The notes under the pieces: generated by a model | The model's database searches: none | Told to the model about the DNA's origin: nothing | Seen by the model: only the letters and a program-made list of their open reading frames with translations | Program-made: the position numbers and the translations under genes | In this document: positions 1,999-32,705 of the stretch, in pieces | Position numbering within the stretch: the first letter of the stretch is position 1 | How the letters are laid out: every line of letters starts with the position of its first letter | Source: Methanothermococcus sp. SCGC AD-155-M21 | GTDB taxonomy: Archaea; AGJL01; Methanococci; Methanococcales; Methanococcaceae | Length of the DNA: 36,790 bases | Assembly: GCA_019561565.1 (NCBI GenBank) | Contig: JAHEPY010000092.1 | Coordinates: forward strand, 1 to 36,790 | Reading direction: 5' to 3'

Positions 1999-3309
1999 AT
2001 GATTAGTTATTTTGATTATAAAAATACTACAGAGGAAAAAATAGGTAATGAAGGAATATCCCTAAGGGATGTTGAGGCCATGAGTGATACTATAAATAAA
2101 GCCTATAATGGAGTAATTAACAAATATAAAAATAAAGAATTGGGATTTATGGATGTAATATATGATGAGGATTTAAACAAATACTATGAACTAAGTAAAT
2201 ACTATAAGGATTATGAATATATTGTAATTATAGGCATGGGAGGCTCTATCTTAGGAACTCAGATGGTATATGAGGGCATCCATGGAATATATTACAATGA
2301 ATTAAATTCTAATAGTAAAAAAGTTTATTTTTTGGATAATTCTGACCCTGAGAAATTATATGATATTCTTAAAATAGTGGATTTAAAAAAAACACTTTTA
2401 TTTGTAATAAGTAAATCTGGAAATACCGTAGAAACCTTGGCAAACTTTTTTATTATTAAGGAGAAAATGGATAGGATAGGATGTAGTAATAATATCATAA
2501 TAATCTCAAGTGGGGGCATTTTAAAGAATATTGCTGAGAAGGAAGGGTATATGTTATTTGATGTTCCTGAAAATGTTGGAGGTAGATTTTCAGTACTATC
2601 CTCTGTGGGCCTGGCTCCAATGTCCTGTATGGGGATAGATATTAAAGGATTAATTGAGGGGGCAAGGGATATGGATAAGTTATGTAAAAATGAAGATGTA
2701 TTTAAAAATCCTGCCCTTATGAATGCCTTAATTCACTATATATTCTTAAATAGGGGAAAAAGTATTTCTGTGCTTATGCCATACATTGAAAGACTTCATA
2801 AGTTTGGTATATGGTATAGGCAGTTATGGGCCGAGAGCCTTGGAAAAGATGGAAAGGGCCAAACTCCAGTAATATCCATTGGAGCAAAGGATCAACACTC
2901 CCAACTTCAACTTTATTTAGATGGTCCAAAGGATAAAATAATTACATTTTTAAAAGTAAAAAAGTTTAAGGAGGATTTTATTATTAAGTATCAAAATCAT
3001 TATTTAAATAATCATAAACTATCTAAACTTATAAATTTTGAACAATTAGGAACTGAAGGGGCCTTAACCTCCAAGGGCATCCCAAATATCTCCATAGTAC
3101 TTGAGGAATTAAACGAGTACTCCCTTGGAAAGTTAATATACATGTATGAGATAGGAACTGCATTTATGGGCGAGATGATGGGAATAAATACATTTAACCA
3201 GCCTGCAGTGGAGGAAGGTAAAATAATAACGAGGAAATTATTGGAGGGTAAATCCATCGAAAATATGATGAAAAATAAATTAAATGAAAAATATTTAATT
3301 GAAATGTAA
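1999..3309 (+). CDS. pgi: glucose-6-phosphate isomerase
   Basis: This 436-residue protein belongs to the classical PGI superfamily and interconverts glucose-6-phosphate and fructose-6-phosphate. Visible signatures are the SIS-type sugar-phosphate segment VIGMGGSILGTQ near residue 77, FVISKSGNTVETLANF in the middle, and the PGI signature around DQHSQLQLY near residue 297. The C-terminus has the conserved GTAFMGEMMGINTFNQPAVEEGK region. GGGGGTAAT stands directly before the ATG and supports this start. The gene is 164 bases after glgA and about 120 before pfkC, so they could be co-transcribed or separately promoted. It supplies the step between the phosphofructokinase product and the glucose phosphates used for glycogen. 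Confidence 0.94.
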   Translation: MISYFDYKNTTEEKIGNEGISLRDVEAMSDTINKAYNGVINKYKNKELGFMDVIYDEDLNKYYELSKYYKDYEYIVIIGMGGSILGTQMVYEGIHGIYYNELNSNSKKVYFLDNSDPEKLYDILKIVDLKKTLLFVISKSGNTVETLANFFIIKEKMDRIGCSNNIIIISSGGILKNIAEKEGYMLFDVPENVGGRFSVLSSVGLAPMSCMGIDIKGLIEGARDMDKLCKNEDVFKNPALMNALIHYIFLNRGKSISVLMPYIERLHKFGIWYRQLWAESLGKDGKGQTPVISIGAKDQHSQLQLYLDGPKDKIITFLKVKKFKEDFIIKYQNHYLNNHKLSKLINFEQLGTEGALTSKGIPNISIVLEELNEYSLGKLIYMYEIGTAFMGEMMGINTFNQPAVEEGKIITRKLLEGKSIENMMKNKLNEKYLIEM

Positions 3310-3431
3310 TAAAAAATATTAAAAAAAGAGATAATTAATAAAAAAATTATAAAAAAATTAATAATAATAATCAAGATTGTATTTTAGATTATAATAATTA
3401 AAGGGTTTAATATCCTCACTTGGGAGAAAAT

Positions 3432-4943
3432 ATGAAAAATATGGAAGATATTAAAAAATCCATTAATAATAATGAAATAAATTATAATAAAAATGATATG
3501 GACAACAGCCGAGATAATTCCTACAGTGAGATTATAGAAATTATAAATAATTTTTCCAATATTAGCGTATTTTTGGCATATAATGCCAATGTTGATGGAA
3601 TAAAATTTTTTAAAGATGGGAGGGAAGTGGAAGAACTAATAAATCACTTTGATATAGGGGAAATAATAGAAACTATGGAAAAATACCCTAGGAAGATAAA
3701 AAGTCCAGTGGATTTTGTTGCAAGATTAATACACTGTATGGAAAATGGAAAACCTGCAGAGATACCGATTGTTGAGGATGAATCATTAAATAATTGGTTC
3801 AATAGAATAAAATACGATGAGGAAAGAATAGGGGGGCAAGTTGGAATAATCTCCAATCTACTATCTCTATTAAATTTAAAAAGGATTATAGCCTATACTC
3901 CACTACTATCAAAAAAGCAGTCTGAAATGTTTAATGATAGTGATAATTTACTATATCCAGTTGTTATTGATGGGAAATTATTCTTAAAAAAGCCTAAGGA
4001 GGCCTATAAGGAGGAGGATCCCTTAAAGATAAATCGTATTTTTGAATATGGGGAGAACCTTGAATTTTTCTTAGGGGAGAAAAAAATAACAACACCTCAT
4101 GCCAATAGACTTATTGTTGCCTCAAGACCTGATAAATTAAGGATAGAAATAGGGGAAGACTTAAAAAAGAAACTAGTGGAAATTGGGGAGATTGTAGATT
4201 GTGCAATTCTCTCAGGATACCAGGGAATAAAGGAAAGATACTCCGATGGTAAGGATGACCATTACTACATTAAAAGAGTCAAAGAGGATATAGATCTATT
4301 AAAGAGAAATAAGGGTATAAAAATACATTTAGAGTTTGCATCCATCCAGAGTAAAAGATTGAGAAAAATGATTGTGGATAATATAATCCCAAAAGTGGAT
4401 TCCTTAGGTATGGATGAGACTGAAATAGCAAATGTTATCAATGTTATGGGACATGAGGACTTTAGTAATATAATATTAAAAAATAGTAGAATTGAGGATG
4501 TTTTATATGCCTCAAAGATATTACTTGAGGAGCATGATAATTTAGAGATTGTACAGGTTCATACTCTATACTATATAATGTGCCTTTGTAGAAAAGATAA
4601 TTTACTTAGCGAAGGGGAACTTGAAAAAACTTTGGACTTAGCCACTATTTTGGCAGGCACAAAGGCCAAATTAGGTAAAATATTAAATATTGGGGATCTA
4701 AAGGAAGGGGCTAAAATTCCCTACAATAAACATGAGGGATTCTTTAAAAAAGTTATAAGGGATTTAAGGAAAAGTCCAGAATATAGGGATTATAAAATTG
4801 CACTTGTACCTTCAAGATTGGTAAAAAATCCCAAATCCACTGTTGGACTTGGGGATACCATATCCTCTGGAGCATTTATTGGATATGTGTCTATGTTATG
4901 GAATAAAATCATAAATAAAAATATTAAAAATAAAAATAATTAA
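3432..4943 (+). CDS. pfkC: ADP-dependent phosphofructokinase (possibly with glucokinase activity)
   Basis: The product is a 503-residue member of the ADP-dependent sugar kinase family (ribokinase fold), which phosphorylates fructose-6-phosphate with ADP in the modified archaeal Embden-Meyerhof pathway. Substrate-side sequence FLAYNANVDGIKFF lies near residue 45 and the catalytic anion-hole motif VGLGDTISSG near residues 471-480. The methanococcal enzyme is known to phosphorylate glucose as well; that is family knowledge, not seen here. I prefer ATG 3432 because GGGAG at 3422-3426 is well placed; a TTG at 3420 would overlap that site. The first 25 residues are N/K/D-rich and look like a poorly conserved extension. 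The last ten or so residues (KIINKNIKNKNN) resemble translated spacer. The gene converges on the connectase gene with 19 bases between stops. Confidence 0.9.
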   Translation: MKNMEDIKKSINNNEINYNKNDMDNSRDNSYSEIIEIINNFSNISVFLAYNANVDGIKFFKDGREVEELINHFDIGEIIETMEKYPRKIKSPVDFVARLIHCMENGKPAEIPIVEDESLNNWFNRIKYDEERIGGQVGIISNLLSLLNLKRIIAYTPLLSKKQSEMFNDSDNLLYPVVIDGKLFLKKPKEAYKEEDPLKINRIFEYGENLEFFLGEKKITTPHANRLIVASRPDKLRIEIGEDLKKKLVEIGEIVDCAILSGYQGIKERYSDGKDDHYYIKRVKEDIDLLKRNKGIKIHLEFASIQSKRLRKMIVDNIIPKVDSLGMDETEIANVINVMGHEDFSNIILKNSRIEDVLYASKILLEEHDNLEIVQVHTLYYIMCLCRKDNLLSEGELEKTLDLATILAGTKAKLGKILNIGDLKEGAKIPYNKHEGFFKKVIRDLRKSPEYRDYKIALVPSRLVKNPKSTVGLGDTISSGAFIGYVSMLWNKIINKNIKNKNN

Positions 4944-4962
4944 TATTATTTTTTGCCGTATA

Positions 4963-7052: not shown

Positions 7053-7184
7053 ATTGGATGGCATGGATAATAGGGAATAATATTAAAGGGAAATAATCTT
7101 ATAAAGGAAGTAATATTATATCACATAGTGATAATACTTTGGTTTTATATATCGAAAGGTATATAAATAAAATTAGGGATAATT

Positions 7185-10300: not shown

Positions 10301-10303
10301 ACC

Positions 10304-11155
10304 CTAGTTCCCATCACTCCTTAACCGATAAAAATTAAAAGCTAACAGACTAAGAATAATCTTAACTGCCAGGCCTCTTCTACTTACAGCCCTTATAAAT
10401 CTCAGTCCAAGGTTATCTACAACTGAGAAAAGTGTTTCAATTTTCTTTCTTAATTTAGAAAGAAATCCATGGTACCCCCGTTCCTCATCACTCTTTATCA
10501 TATTTTTTCTTTTCATTGCAACGAATATAACGTCCTTTTTCTTCATTTTTTCAGAGAACTCTTTACTTACGTATCCTTTATCGCCTATGACAGTTTCTCC
10601 TTTTAATCTTTCAGTAAAATCCTCTTCTTTTTCCTTGAGAATGGTTAAATCATGTTTTTTTGCAGTACTTATGTAAAGTAGGTTAATATACTTTCCATCT
10701 GTTACACAGGTTATCTTGTAACCATGGTAATATCTTTTTTTGATGGAGCATATCCCACTGACTCCTCTTCTCTTATTATTCTAGATTCTCCTCTCTTTTT
10801 GTATCTATTAGATCTTACAAGTTCTTTCGTTTCAACTGGTTTAGCATCAACGATCTTTACTTTTCCCTCTGAAATTTTCTTAAATACATAATCAAGAACC
10901 TTGTACAGTAGATCTTCATATCTATTAAGCCTCTCAATCAATTTATTATATCTAATCTTAGGAAACAGTTCGAGATCTTCAATAAAGTGAGTATAAGCAT
11001 GCTTTATAACTCCATTGAAATATAGGTGAGCAAGAATTCCAAAAGTTATCAGGTCGTACAGGGACATTACTTCCTTATTGGCCTTAGATGGATAGTGGTT
11101 TTATTAATTCTCTTATTCTGTCTGTCTCCTTAATGTATTTTTTTACTAGGTTCAT
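10304..11155 (-). pseudogene. IS982-like DDE transposase, two frameshifts
   Basis: Reading from ATG 11155, the N-terminus (MNLVKKYIKETDRIRELI) runs into a stop. The main frame resumes near 11085 (KANKEVMSLYDLITFGILAHLYF) and continues to an A7 run at 10735-10741. A one-base shift there joins it to an open frame (RYYHGYKITCVTDGKY) that runs to 10304. DDE-type residues are visible: Asp in IVDAKPVET, Asp in VIGDKGY, and Glu in KKIETLFSVVDNLG. About 284 codons in total fits the family. The first frameshift has no slippery run, so I read the gene as inactive. Without repair the frames appear as separate short proteins, for example 10711-11067 and 10304-10546. Confidence 0.85.
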
Positions 11156-11195
11156 AATCTCTCTTAATGTATTTTTTCTACGGGGTTCATAATCT
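11130..11195. repeat. tandem duplication at the transposase 5' end
   Basis: 11130-11160 and 11164-11195 are near-identical copies of a 31/32-base unit running from TTAATGTATTTTTT to GGTTCATAATCT, with a few mismatches. The copy nearer the gene carries the usable minus-strand ATG at 11155. The outer copy has an ATG that meets a stop after eight codons. Confidence 0.7.
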
Positions 11196-11320
11196 TTATA
11201 TAGGTTATTTTAGTATATATTATTTTTGATGGGAAGTAAGGTTTAAATTATATAATTATGTTTAAAAATACATTAAATTATATACTAAAACCCATATATT
11301 GGCCTTATAAAACATTATAG

Positions 11321-13079: not shown

Positions 13080-14012
13080 GTGTTTAATGCCAGTGAATTT
13101 ATAGAAGAAAGTATTTTAAAATTAAAAGAGGAAATAGGAGACAGAAAAGCCATAATAGCCCTTAGTGGGGGAGTTGATAGTTCTGTGGCTGCAGTACTTG
13201 CAAGTAAGGCTATTGGGGATAGATTGTTGGCCGTGTTTGTTGATACAGGACTTATGAGAAAGAATGAGGCCGAGGAGATATATAATATATTCAAAGGAGA
13301 TTTGGGAATAAATTTAAAGATAATAGATAAGAAAGATCTATTTTTAAAGGAGTTAAGTGGAATAAAGGATCCAGAGGAGAAAAGAAAAATAATTGGCAGA
13401 TTGTTTATTGAGGTATTTGAGGAGGTTGCAAAGGAGAACGGAGAGGAGGTACTTGTTCAAGGTACCATAGCTCCAGATTGGATAGAGAGTGAGGGAGATA
13501 TTAAAACCCATCACAACATAGCCCTACCAAGTGGAATGGTTTTAGAGGTTGTAGAGCCATTAAGGGATCTCTACAAGGATGAGGTTAGGATAGTTGCAAA
13601 GGAATTGGGACTTCCAGATAAAATAGCCAATAGGCAGCCCTTCCCTGGTCCAGGTCTTGCTGTAAGGGTATTGGGAGAGATTACCTTAGAAAAGTTAGAG
13701 GTATGTAGGGAGGCCAATGCCATAGTTGAGGAGGAGATAGAGAAAGAGGGACTTAATAAAAAACTATGGCAATACTTTGCTGCCGTACTTGATACAAAGG
13801 CCACAGGGGTAAAGGGAGACGTAAGGGAATATAATTGGGTAGTGGCTATTAGAATGGTAGAGTCTTTAGATGCCATGACTGCAAATGTCCCTGAAATATC
13901 CTTTGCCATTTTAAAGAGAATAAGTAAGAGGATTACTTCAGAGGTCCCAAATGTTGCAAGGGTAGTTTTTGATATTACTGATAAACCTCCTGCCACTATT
14001 GAATTTGAGTAG
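13080..14012 (+). CDS. guaAB: GMP synthase subunit B (PP-loop ATPase subunit)
   Basis: The 310-residue protein is the ATP pyrophosphatase half of archaeal GMP synthase, converting XMP to GMP with ammonia from a separate glutaminase subunit. The PP-loop [15 protein letters not shown] lies near residue 28. The XMP-binding and dimerisation domain has [16 protein letters not shown] and the C-terminal [13 protein letters not shown] that ends the family. There is no amidotransferase domain in the chain, as expected for the two-subunit archaeal enzyme; the glutaminase gene is not in this window. The start is GTG at 13080, five bases after GGTGAT. Confidence 0.95.
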
Positions 14013-14221
14013 ATATAAAATTATTATGGGGATTATATAAAAATAAAATATATTATTAAGCAAAATTATTTATACTAAATAAAAAACCTTACTTCCAAAA
14101 AATTCAATAAAAAAATAATTTAAAAAAATTAAAAAAACATAAAATAATAATATTTAAAGGGATAAAAAAAATAGAAAATGATTAAAATAAAATAAAAAAT
14201 CTCAAAATTATTAAAATACTT

Positions 14222-14330
14222 GATTACCCCCAGATAATCCTAAGCACTGGGAAAAAGGTAATCCATTAAAAAGGCAGGTATTATAAAAGTTATATTAATC
14301 TAAGGCAGGACCTTAAATCATTCTCTCTAT
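14222..14330 (+). ncRNA. structured leader element, copy A of a three-copy family
   Basis: The 5' part forms a striking hairpin. GATTACC (14222-14228) pairs with GGTAATC (14257-14263), and CCCAG (14229-14233) with CTGGG (14247-14251). This makes a 12-pair stem interrupted by one A5 bulge, with ATAATCCTAAGCA in the loop. The sequence CCTAAGCACTGG recurs at 32609-32620, and a close form occurs on the minus strand near 31355-31346. Similarity to the minus-strand copy continues for about 100 bases (AATCC, GGTATTAT, AAGTT, CTTAAAT blocks in order). It lies about 200 bases before the flippase start, in the same orientation. Function is unknown. Confidence 0.5.
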
Positions 14331-14334
14331 TATC

Positions 14335-14357
14335 AATATAAAACCTTTTAAATTATA
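14335..14357. repeat. 23-base repeat shared with 10185-10207
   Basis: The 23 bases here, from AATATAAAACC to TTTTAAATTATA, are identical to 10185-10207. GTTATATTAAT also precedes both copies at differing distance. One copy is 169 bases before the flippase start. The other would be about 190 bases before pyrG if the insertion sequence and one target duplication are removed. It may be a shared promoter module. Confidence 0.55.
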
Positions 14358-14525
14358 TTATTTATTATTTTATCAATAATTTTATTTATTTTTTACATTA
14401 TTTTTTATTTTAAAAAAATTTATATTATGGAAAATAAGTTTAAGATGTTATGCATTTGACTATATTATTAATTACCAGTATTGTTATTAATTTTAATTAT
14501 AATTATTTTTATTTTATGGGAAACT

Positions 14526-31168: not shown

Positions 31169-31570
31169 AGTGATCACATTTTTATATAATCAAACACATA
31201 ATATCTTAAAATTATGATCTATAGCATAATAAAATAATTAATAATAAAGGGATAAAATATTAATAAAAGGAATAATTTAAGTCATTATCTTGGCCTAATT
31301 ATAAACTTACATAATACCCTCCTGTAAAGGATTCTCCTGTTCTCCCAGTGCTAGAATATCTTAGGGAAAACAATGATAAGATTTTTACTTTTTATGTTTT
31401 ACTCTCTTTTTAGGAATTTTAAAATCTTAAATTATTCTATTTTATTTTTATTATTTTTAATTATTTATTTTTTTATTTAAAATATTTTTTTAATTATTTT
31501 AAATTATTTTTCAATTTTTTTATATTATTTTTTTAAGATTATACTTAAAACTAATACTATCTGTGATAAA
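31169..31570. other. divergent spacer with leader-element copy B
   Basis: This 402-base gap separates the minus-strand unknown gene from the plus-strand radical SAM gene. Its only GC-richer part is the element at 31255-31372, oriented to the left. The remaining 31380-31560 is T-rich on the plus strand without recognisable genes. Confidence 0.6.
31255..31372 (-). ncRNA. structured leader element, copy B (minus strand)
   Basis: Read on the minus strand, CCCTAAGATATTCT is followed by AGCACTGGGA, aligning with copy A (CCCCCAGATAATCCTAAGCACTGGGA split as in that entry). Blocks AATCC, GGTATTAT, AAGTT and CTTAAAT follow in the same order and spacing. Possible helices are CCC/GGG closing the conserved loop and AGGA/TCCT just after it. 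The conserved part ends about 90 bases before the unknown gene at 31168. Confidence 0.5.
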
Positions 31571-32425: not shown

Positions 32426-32591
32426 GGACTTTTATTAAGATAATATTTTTAAGAGTATTAAAAACAAATGAAAAATAAAATAAATAAAATAAATAATTTA
32501 AAAAAAATTAAAAATAAAAATAAAAAAGGAGAAAATTAAATACTTAAAGATATAAGGAAAAATAAAAAAGTAGGAATTCCTTACAATCGCC

Positions 32592-32670
32592 CTCCTTCCC
32601 CCTACTTTCCTAAGCACTGGAAGTGTAGCGGAAATCATTTAAGCATTAGGATTACTGTATTTATAATAAT
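32592..32670 (+). ncRNA. structured leader element, copy C
   Basis: CCCCCT (32598-32603) is followed by TTCCTAAGCACTGG (32607-32620), matching copy A at CCTAAGCACTGG exactly. AAAGTAGG (32567-32574) can pair with CCTACTTT (32601-32608), or TTCC with GGAA (32619-32622) around TAAGCACT, so two alternative folds share bases. Similarity to copy A weakens after AATCATT. It ends about 36 bases before the glycosyltransferase start, in the same orientation. Confidence 0.45.
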
Positions 32671-32705
32671 ATGGGTTGATGATTTTGTTTTAATACAGGG
32701 ATAAT

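Follow-up and report, generated by a model that had tools for sequence, protein, structure and literature searches.

REP/BIME and Correia elements are dispersed small repeats of bacteria, which occur in hundreds of intergenic copies and have internal hairpin potential. The repeat described here is similar to them in both respects and differs from them in its clear IS630-like ends. More similar are the miniature inverted-repeat transposable elements (MITEs) derived from insertion sequences of the IS630 family (IS630/Tc1-mariner superfamily): like them, the repeat is short, non-coding, bounded by terminal inverted repeats (TIRs), high in copy number and intergenic, and it shares its ends with IS630 copies in one genome. 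Different from these MITEs, however, it displays a strong A/T strand asymmetry, tandem arrays of units and a marked bias in orientation relative to genes, and any TA duplication would be masked by its A+T flanks. Similar to the repeat, the archaeal MITEs described from Sulfolobus and from a survey of 30 archaeal genomes are non-autonomous derivatives of resident insertion sequences (PMC3718332, PMC3852290), but the present repeat reaches hundreds of copies. The main text of the 30-genome survey does not mention Methanococcus, Methanocaldococcus or Methanothermococcus. A paper on Methanothermococcus (PMC8417812) contains neither "transpos" nor "mobile", and literature searches did not find the element. 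Thus, as far as searched, the repeat constitutes an IS630-type MITE family that has not been described before and is carried by some members of a single methanogen genus.

Copies in the window and anatomy of the element

The window analyzed comprises positions 1 to 36,790 of contig JAHEPY010000092.1 of Methanothermococcus sp. SCGC AD-155-M21. The core motif AGCACTGG occurred in it exactly three times (Table 1), while 0.21 occurrences were expected. The three copies, A, B and C, all matched one sequence profile with E values of 2e-15 to 2e-21, although this profile was built from 23 copies that included these three; no other profile match was found in the window. Thus, the three islands pointed out by the sequence-only reading are real and homologous. 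In the whole genome of AD-155-M21, AGCACTGG was found 32 times and a reversed control pattern was not found. When sorted by eye, 24 of the 32 were intergenic copies of one long repeat and the other 8 looked unrelated.

This repeat is MITE-like, non-coding and A+T-rich inside, roughly 290–415 bp long and bounded by TIRs of the form TATAGTYAAGRACATAAT. Its ends could be read from recent copies of the related Methanothermococcus sp. SCGC AD-155-C09 (G007), which were 89–94% identical to the consensus. The left end, TATAGTTAAGAACATAATTTCTTAAAC..., and the right end, ...AAGTTTAAATTATTATGTCCTTGACTATA, are inverted repeats of each other, of which 16 of the first 20 bases are identical. The lengths of 22 recent elements with TATAGTYAAGRACATAAT-like ends on both sides ranged from 261 to 328 bp, with a consensus of about 291 bp (type I). 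An older form (type II) possesses a different left end, TATAGTCTTAAACAAAATTATTTATAC, and is about 300–480 bp long. Tandem arrays were also present, and a promoter-like A/T-rich stretch, TAAAAAGTAGAAAT, was well conserved inside the element. The elements end in TATA...TATA within flanks of nearly pure A+T, and therefore no clean target-site duplication was readable: in 14 pairs of filled and empty sites, a TA duplication was indistinguishable from the flank. Two TIR-bounded elements of 597 bp without a long open reading frame (ORF) were also noted (L082:2770-3367 and L079:18576-19173), of which at least the latter holds a diverged copy of the repeat.

Copy A had been placed at 14222-14357, which is a fragment of about one third of the TIR-bounded element at about 14051-14464. 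The full element occupies most of the spacer between guaA, whose stop codon is at 14012, and a flippase gene. Its left end, TATTATTAAGCAAAATTATTTATACTAAATAAAAAACCTTA, appears to be degenerate and to resemble the type II left ends.

Table 1. Elements, core motifs and terminal repeat located in the window.
Feature	Position	Strand	Details
Copy A, full element, older (type II) form	14051..14464	+	Left end TATTATTAAGCAAAATTATTTATACTAAATAAAAAACCTTA, right TIR ...TTAAGATGTTATGCATTTGACTATA, profile match 14195-14309
AGCACTGG core of copy A	14243..14250	+	Exact motif match
Right TIR of copy A	14438..14464	+	...TTAAGATGTTATGCATTTGACTATA, ends at 14464
Copy B, type II element, upstream of gene of unknown function (sub-threshold DUF7388)	31185..31543	-	Left end TATAATCTTAAAA, right end GTGTTTGATTATA, profile E 2e-21
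AGCACTGG core of copy B	31345..31352	-	Exact motif match
Copy C, decayed type I form, upstream of GT4 gene	~32437..32697, left boundary uncertain	+	Profile match 32558-32683; ends by eye against type I consensus
AGCACTGG core of copy C	32613..32620	+	Exact motif match

Distribution among Methanococcales genomes

In the genome of AD-155-M21, of which about 55% is represented, the profile identified at least 84 copies. There were at least 86 in the congener G002 and at least 99 in AD-155-C09, as well as 18 in G001 and 3 in G005. One marginal match was found in G004 and another in one genome outside the genus. No profile match was found in the remaining genomes of the order, including most other genomes of the genus. 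Thus, the expectation of further copies in Methanococcales was borne out by hundreds of them, all but confined to a few members of one genus. In AD-155-C09, which was about 92% identical to AD-155-M21 where aligned, the core was matched 336 times with at most two mismatches and the control twice. The carriers recovered in a scan of public genomes were Methanothermococcus sp. SCGC AD-155-C09 and "M. okinawensis" SZUA-1385. Two contig pairs of the AD-155-M21 assembly, C1/C47 and C42/C81, had identical match scores and offsets, which suggests that they are duplicated contigs; the copy counts of this genome may therefore include a few repeats.

Filled and empty sites

The guaA and flippase genes are adjacent in several sister species, in which the length of the spacer between them varied substantially. 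It measured 26–46 bp in G006, G008 and G010, where the element is absent from it, and about 400 bp in G004 and G005, where no copy was recognized. In the window, where it holds one copy, it is 516 bp long, and in AD-155-C09, where it holds three in tandem, 1148 bp. Orthologous spacers at this site thus contain zero, one or three elements, and other sites are polymorphic as well. Further sites were filled in AD-155-C09 and empty in AD-155-M21, several of them with TIRs at the junctions. Relative to the window, AD-155-C09 possesses additional MITE-type insertions of 292–450 bp at about 4923-4961, 6055 and 7054-7134, of which the one at 4923-4961 is bounded by TIRs. Copies B and C are common to both genomes, and the window copies are old and probably immobile relics that also occur in AD-155-C09.

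A probable IS630 partner

Among 12 genomes of the genus, genes for IS630-type transposases with a DDE_3 domain were found only in AD-155-C09, with 10 matches. Three distinct IS630 copies of 1109–1115 bp in this genome are bounded by MITE-like ends, and over the first 20 bases 17 and 16 positions were identical between the two ends of the insertion sequence and those of the MITE. In the best copy (L123:902-2015, about 1114 bp), the transposase frame is split at A-rich stretches into two overlapping parts of 163 and 187 amino acid residues, which could reflect decay or a programmed frameshift. The two parts matched NF033545 (IS630; 127.7 bits, cut-off 100), PF13358 (DDE_3; 97 bits) and PF13565 (HTH), and the relatives with solved structures were Sleeping Beauty and Mos1. 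AD-155-C09 thus holds a candidate autonomous element that has the same ends as the MITE and a split frame. Given the similarity of the ends, its transposase would recognize them and move the MITE in trans. Neither the genome of AD-155-M21 (about 55% complete) nor that of G002 yielded an IS630 transposase; hence, we infer mobilization in these two from AD-155-C09.

The window itself contains a decayed DDE_Tnp_1 (IS4/IS5-like) transposase in several broken frames at 10301-11253 (PF01609 match at about 10331-10741, minus strand). It was considered as a partner and rejected, as no matching ends were found nearby. This stretch of about 950 bp is missing at the equivalent site of AD-155-C09, and a fragment of the same protein lies near another MITE copy of AD-155-M21 (L009, G000:C15, about 3096-3317).

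The repeat thus has TIRs at both ends, is short and without transposase coding, and occurs in many dispersed copies, of which the recent ones are near-identical. Together with the high but patchy copy number, the restriction to spacers, the polymorphism of orthologous spacers, the tandem arrays and the IS630 with matching ends in the genome richest in copies, the TIRs make it very probable that a non-autonomous DNA transposon, a MITE of the IS630/Tc1-mariner type, has left one of its copies at this locus. A small mobile repeat was one of three roles that had been proposed for it, and it is the one that holds.

Placement and orientation

Only 2 of 225 copies lay within ORFs of 90 or more amino acid residues, although 69–80% of the sequence was predicted to be coding (69% in the 521 kb of AD-155-C09 regions, 80% in AD-155-M21). 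The low coding fraction of AD-155-C09 fits an expansion of its spacers by the element, and the intergenic restriction of the element would follow from loss of insertions that broke genes.

Each window copy lies upstream of a gene and in its orientation, as had been noted, and the three downstream genes were named correctly: a Polysacc_synt flippase, a protein of unknown function with only a sub-threshold match to DUF7388, and a GT4 glycosyltransferase. Similar to the window copies, the elements in co-directional spacers mostly point along the genes: 23 to 3 in 352 kb of AD-155-M21 (p 9e-5) and 59 to 9 in 521 kb of AD-155-C09 (p 4e-10), in regions selected for hits rather than sampled at random. 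The two ratios are not fully independent, because some copies are common to both genomes. Recent elements showed the same bias (12 to 3). The alignment with genes is thus strong in co-directional spacers, but it does not extend to the many copies in convergent spacers, which have no downstream gene in their orientation. The neighboring genes, assigned by eye, encode a tRNA amidotransferase subunit, a MoaA-like protein, RNase HII, NAD synthetase, alanyl-tRNA synthetase and others. Since copies flank such unrelated genes of all sorts, the suggested regulon of surface-glycan genes was rejected.

The two strands of the element differ in their T runs. Runs of at least six T were present on the minus strand of all 40 full-length type I elements, and elements of both types contained on average about 4.2–4.4 of them on the minus strand and 0.35–0.59 on the plus strand. 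In the related Methanococcus maripaludis, U-tracts drive transcription termination (PMC8716108). A minus-oriented insertion between co-transcribed genes may therefore terminate transcription before the next gene and would be lost. Loss of such transcription-stopping insertions is perhaps the simplest account of the bias.

An alternative that retains the MITE places the bias at insertion: the plus strand would end up on whichever target strand is rich in A, with no selection against termination. The flanks of recent insertions were A-rich on the plus strand of the element (0.51 A vs. 0.38 T), element-free co-directional spacers were likewise rich in A runs on the coding strand, and such a target-strand preference could yield the same bias, including that of the recent elements. 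The A-rich flanks may, however, include those of older copies, and no Tc1/mariner-type element with near-symmetric ends is known to orient itself by the target strand. A preference at insertion is possible, but we are inclined to doubt it as the source of the bias. Beyond the loss of terminating insertions, the element might have been co-opted in part as a one-way operon unit: RNA polymerase would read through it in the plus orientation and stop in the minus one, and downstream genes may obtain start sites from it; we regard this idea as speculative and rather unlikely.

Lack of a conserved RNA structure

The repeat had no match in Rfam. For the proposed stem and the core hairpin, pairing and covariation were no better than in shuffled alignments, so the anticipated compensatory changes did not materialize; RNAalifold gave 3 pairs and no compensatory change. 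The stem of 12 pairs described for copy A can be drawn, with z values of -1.7 over 61 nt and -0.9 over 150 nt, but it is not a conserved structure: its GATTACC arm arose when 30 nt were deleted, as a comparison with the AD-155-C09 orthologue shows, and this orthologue lacks the stem.

The idea that the core is conserved to an unusual degree was also rejected. When the core was masked in the profile used for searching, the exact 8-mer was kept in 13 of 51 copies of AD-155-M21, and the core columns averaged 77% consensus vs. 74% elsewhere; the apparent invariance is mostly one of ascertainment, because the core was picked by eye. A residual excess was found at the G/C columns of the core (0.755 vs. 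0.626 at other G/C columns, p 0.013), and this would allow for some minor function inside the element.

This excess, together with the well-conserved promoter-like stretch, would suit a family of trans-acting small RNA genes, each with an internal promoter and with the core hairpin near the 5' end of the transcript. Without an Rfam match, covariation or a conserved fold, with the copy A stem missing in the orthologue, and with most of the genus devoid of the element, such a family is highly improbable, and hundreds of decaying, TIR-bearing copies suit a transposon better. Least credible is a family of riboswitch-like cis-regulatory leaders upstream of a regulon, to which the position and orientation of the three window copies and of elements in co-directional spacers had pointed, but which is contradicted by the same Rfam and covariation results, a copy A stem private to one deletion, the many copies in convergent spacers, the unrelated neighboring genes and the orthologous genes of sister species that entirely lack the element. 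The Rfam, covariation, orthologue and context results thus led us to reject both RNA classes in favor of the MITE.

Implications

A candidate new class of RNA is hereby replaced by a well-supported transposon family. Hundreds of its insertions set closely related vent methanogens apart and have lengthened the spacers of formerly adjacent genes. Moreover, the strand-biased placement of the element provides a natural data set on how termination at U-tracts limits the survival of mobile DNA in archaea. If the element does act as a one-way unit, hundreds of insertions would have reshaped the operon structure of these methanogens.
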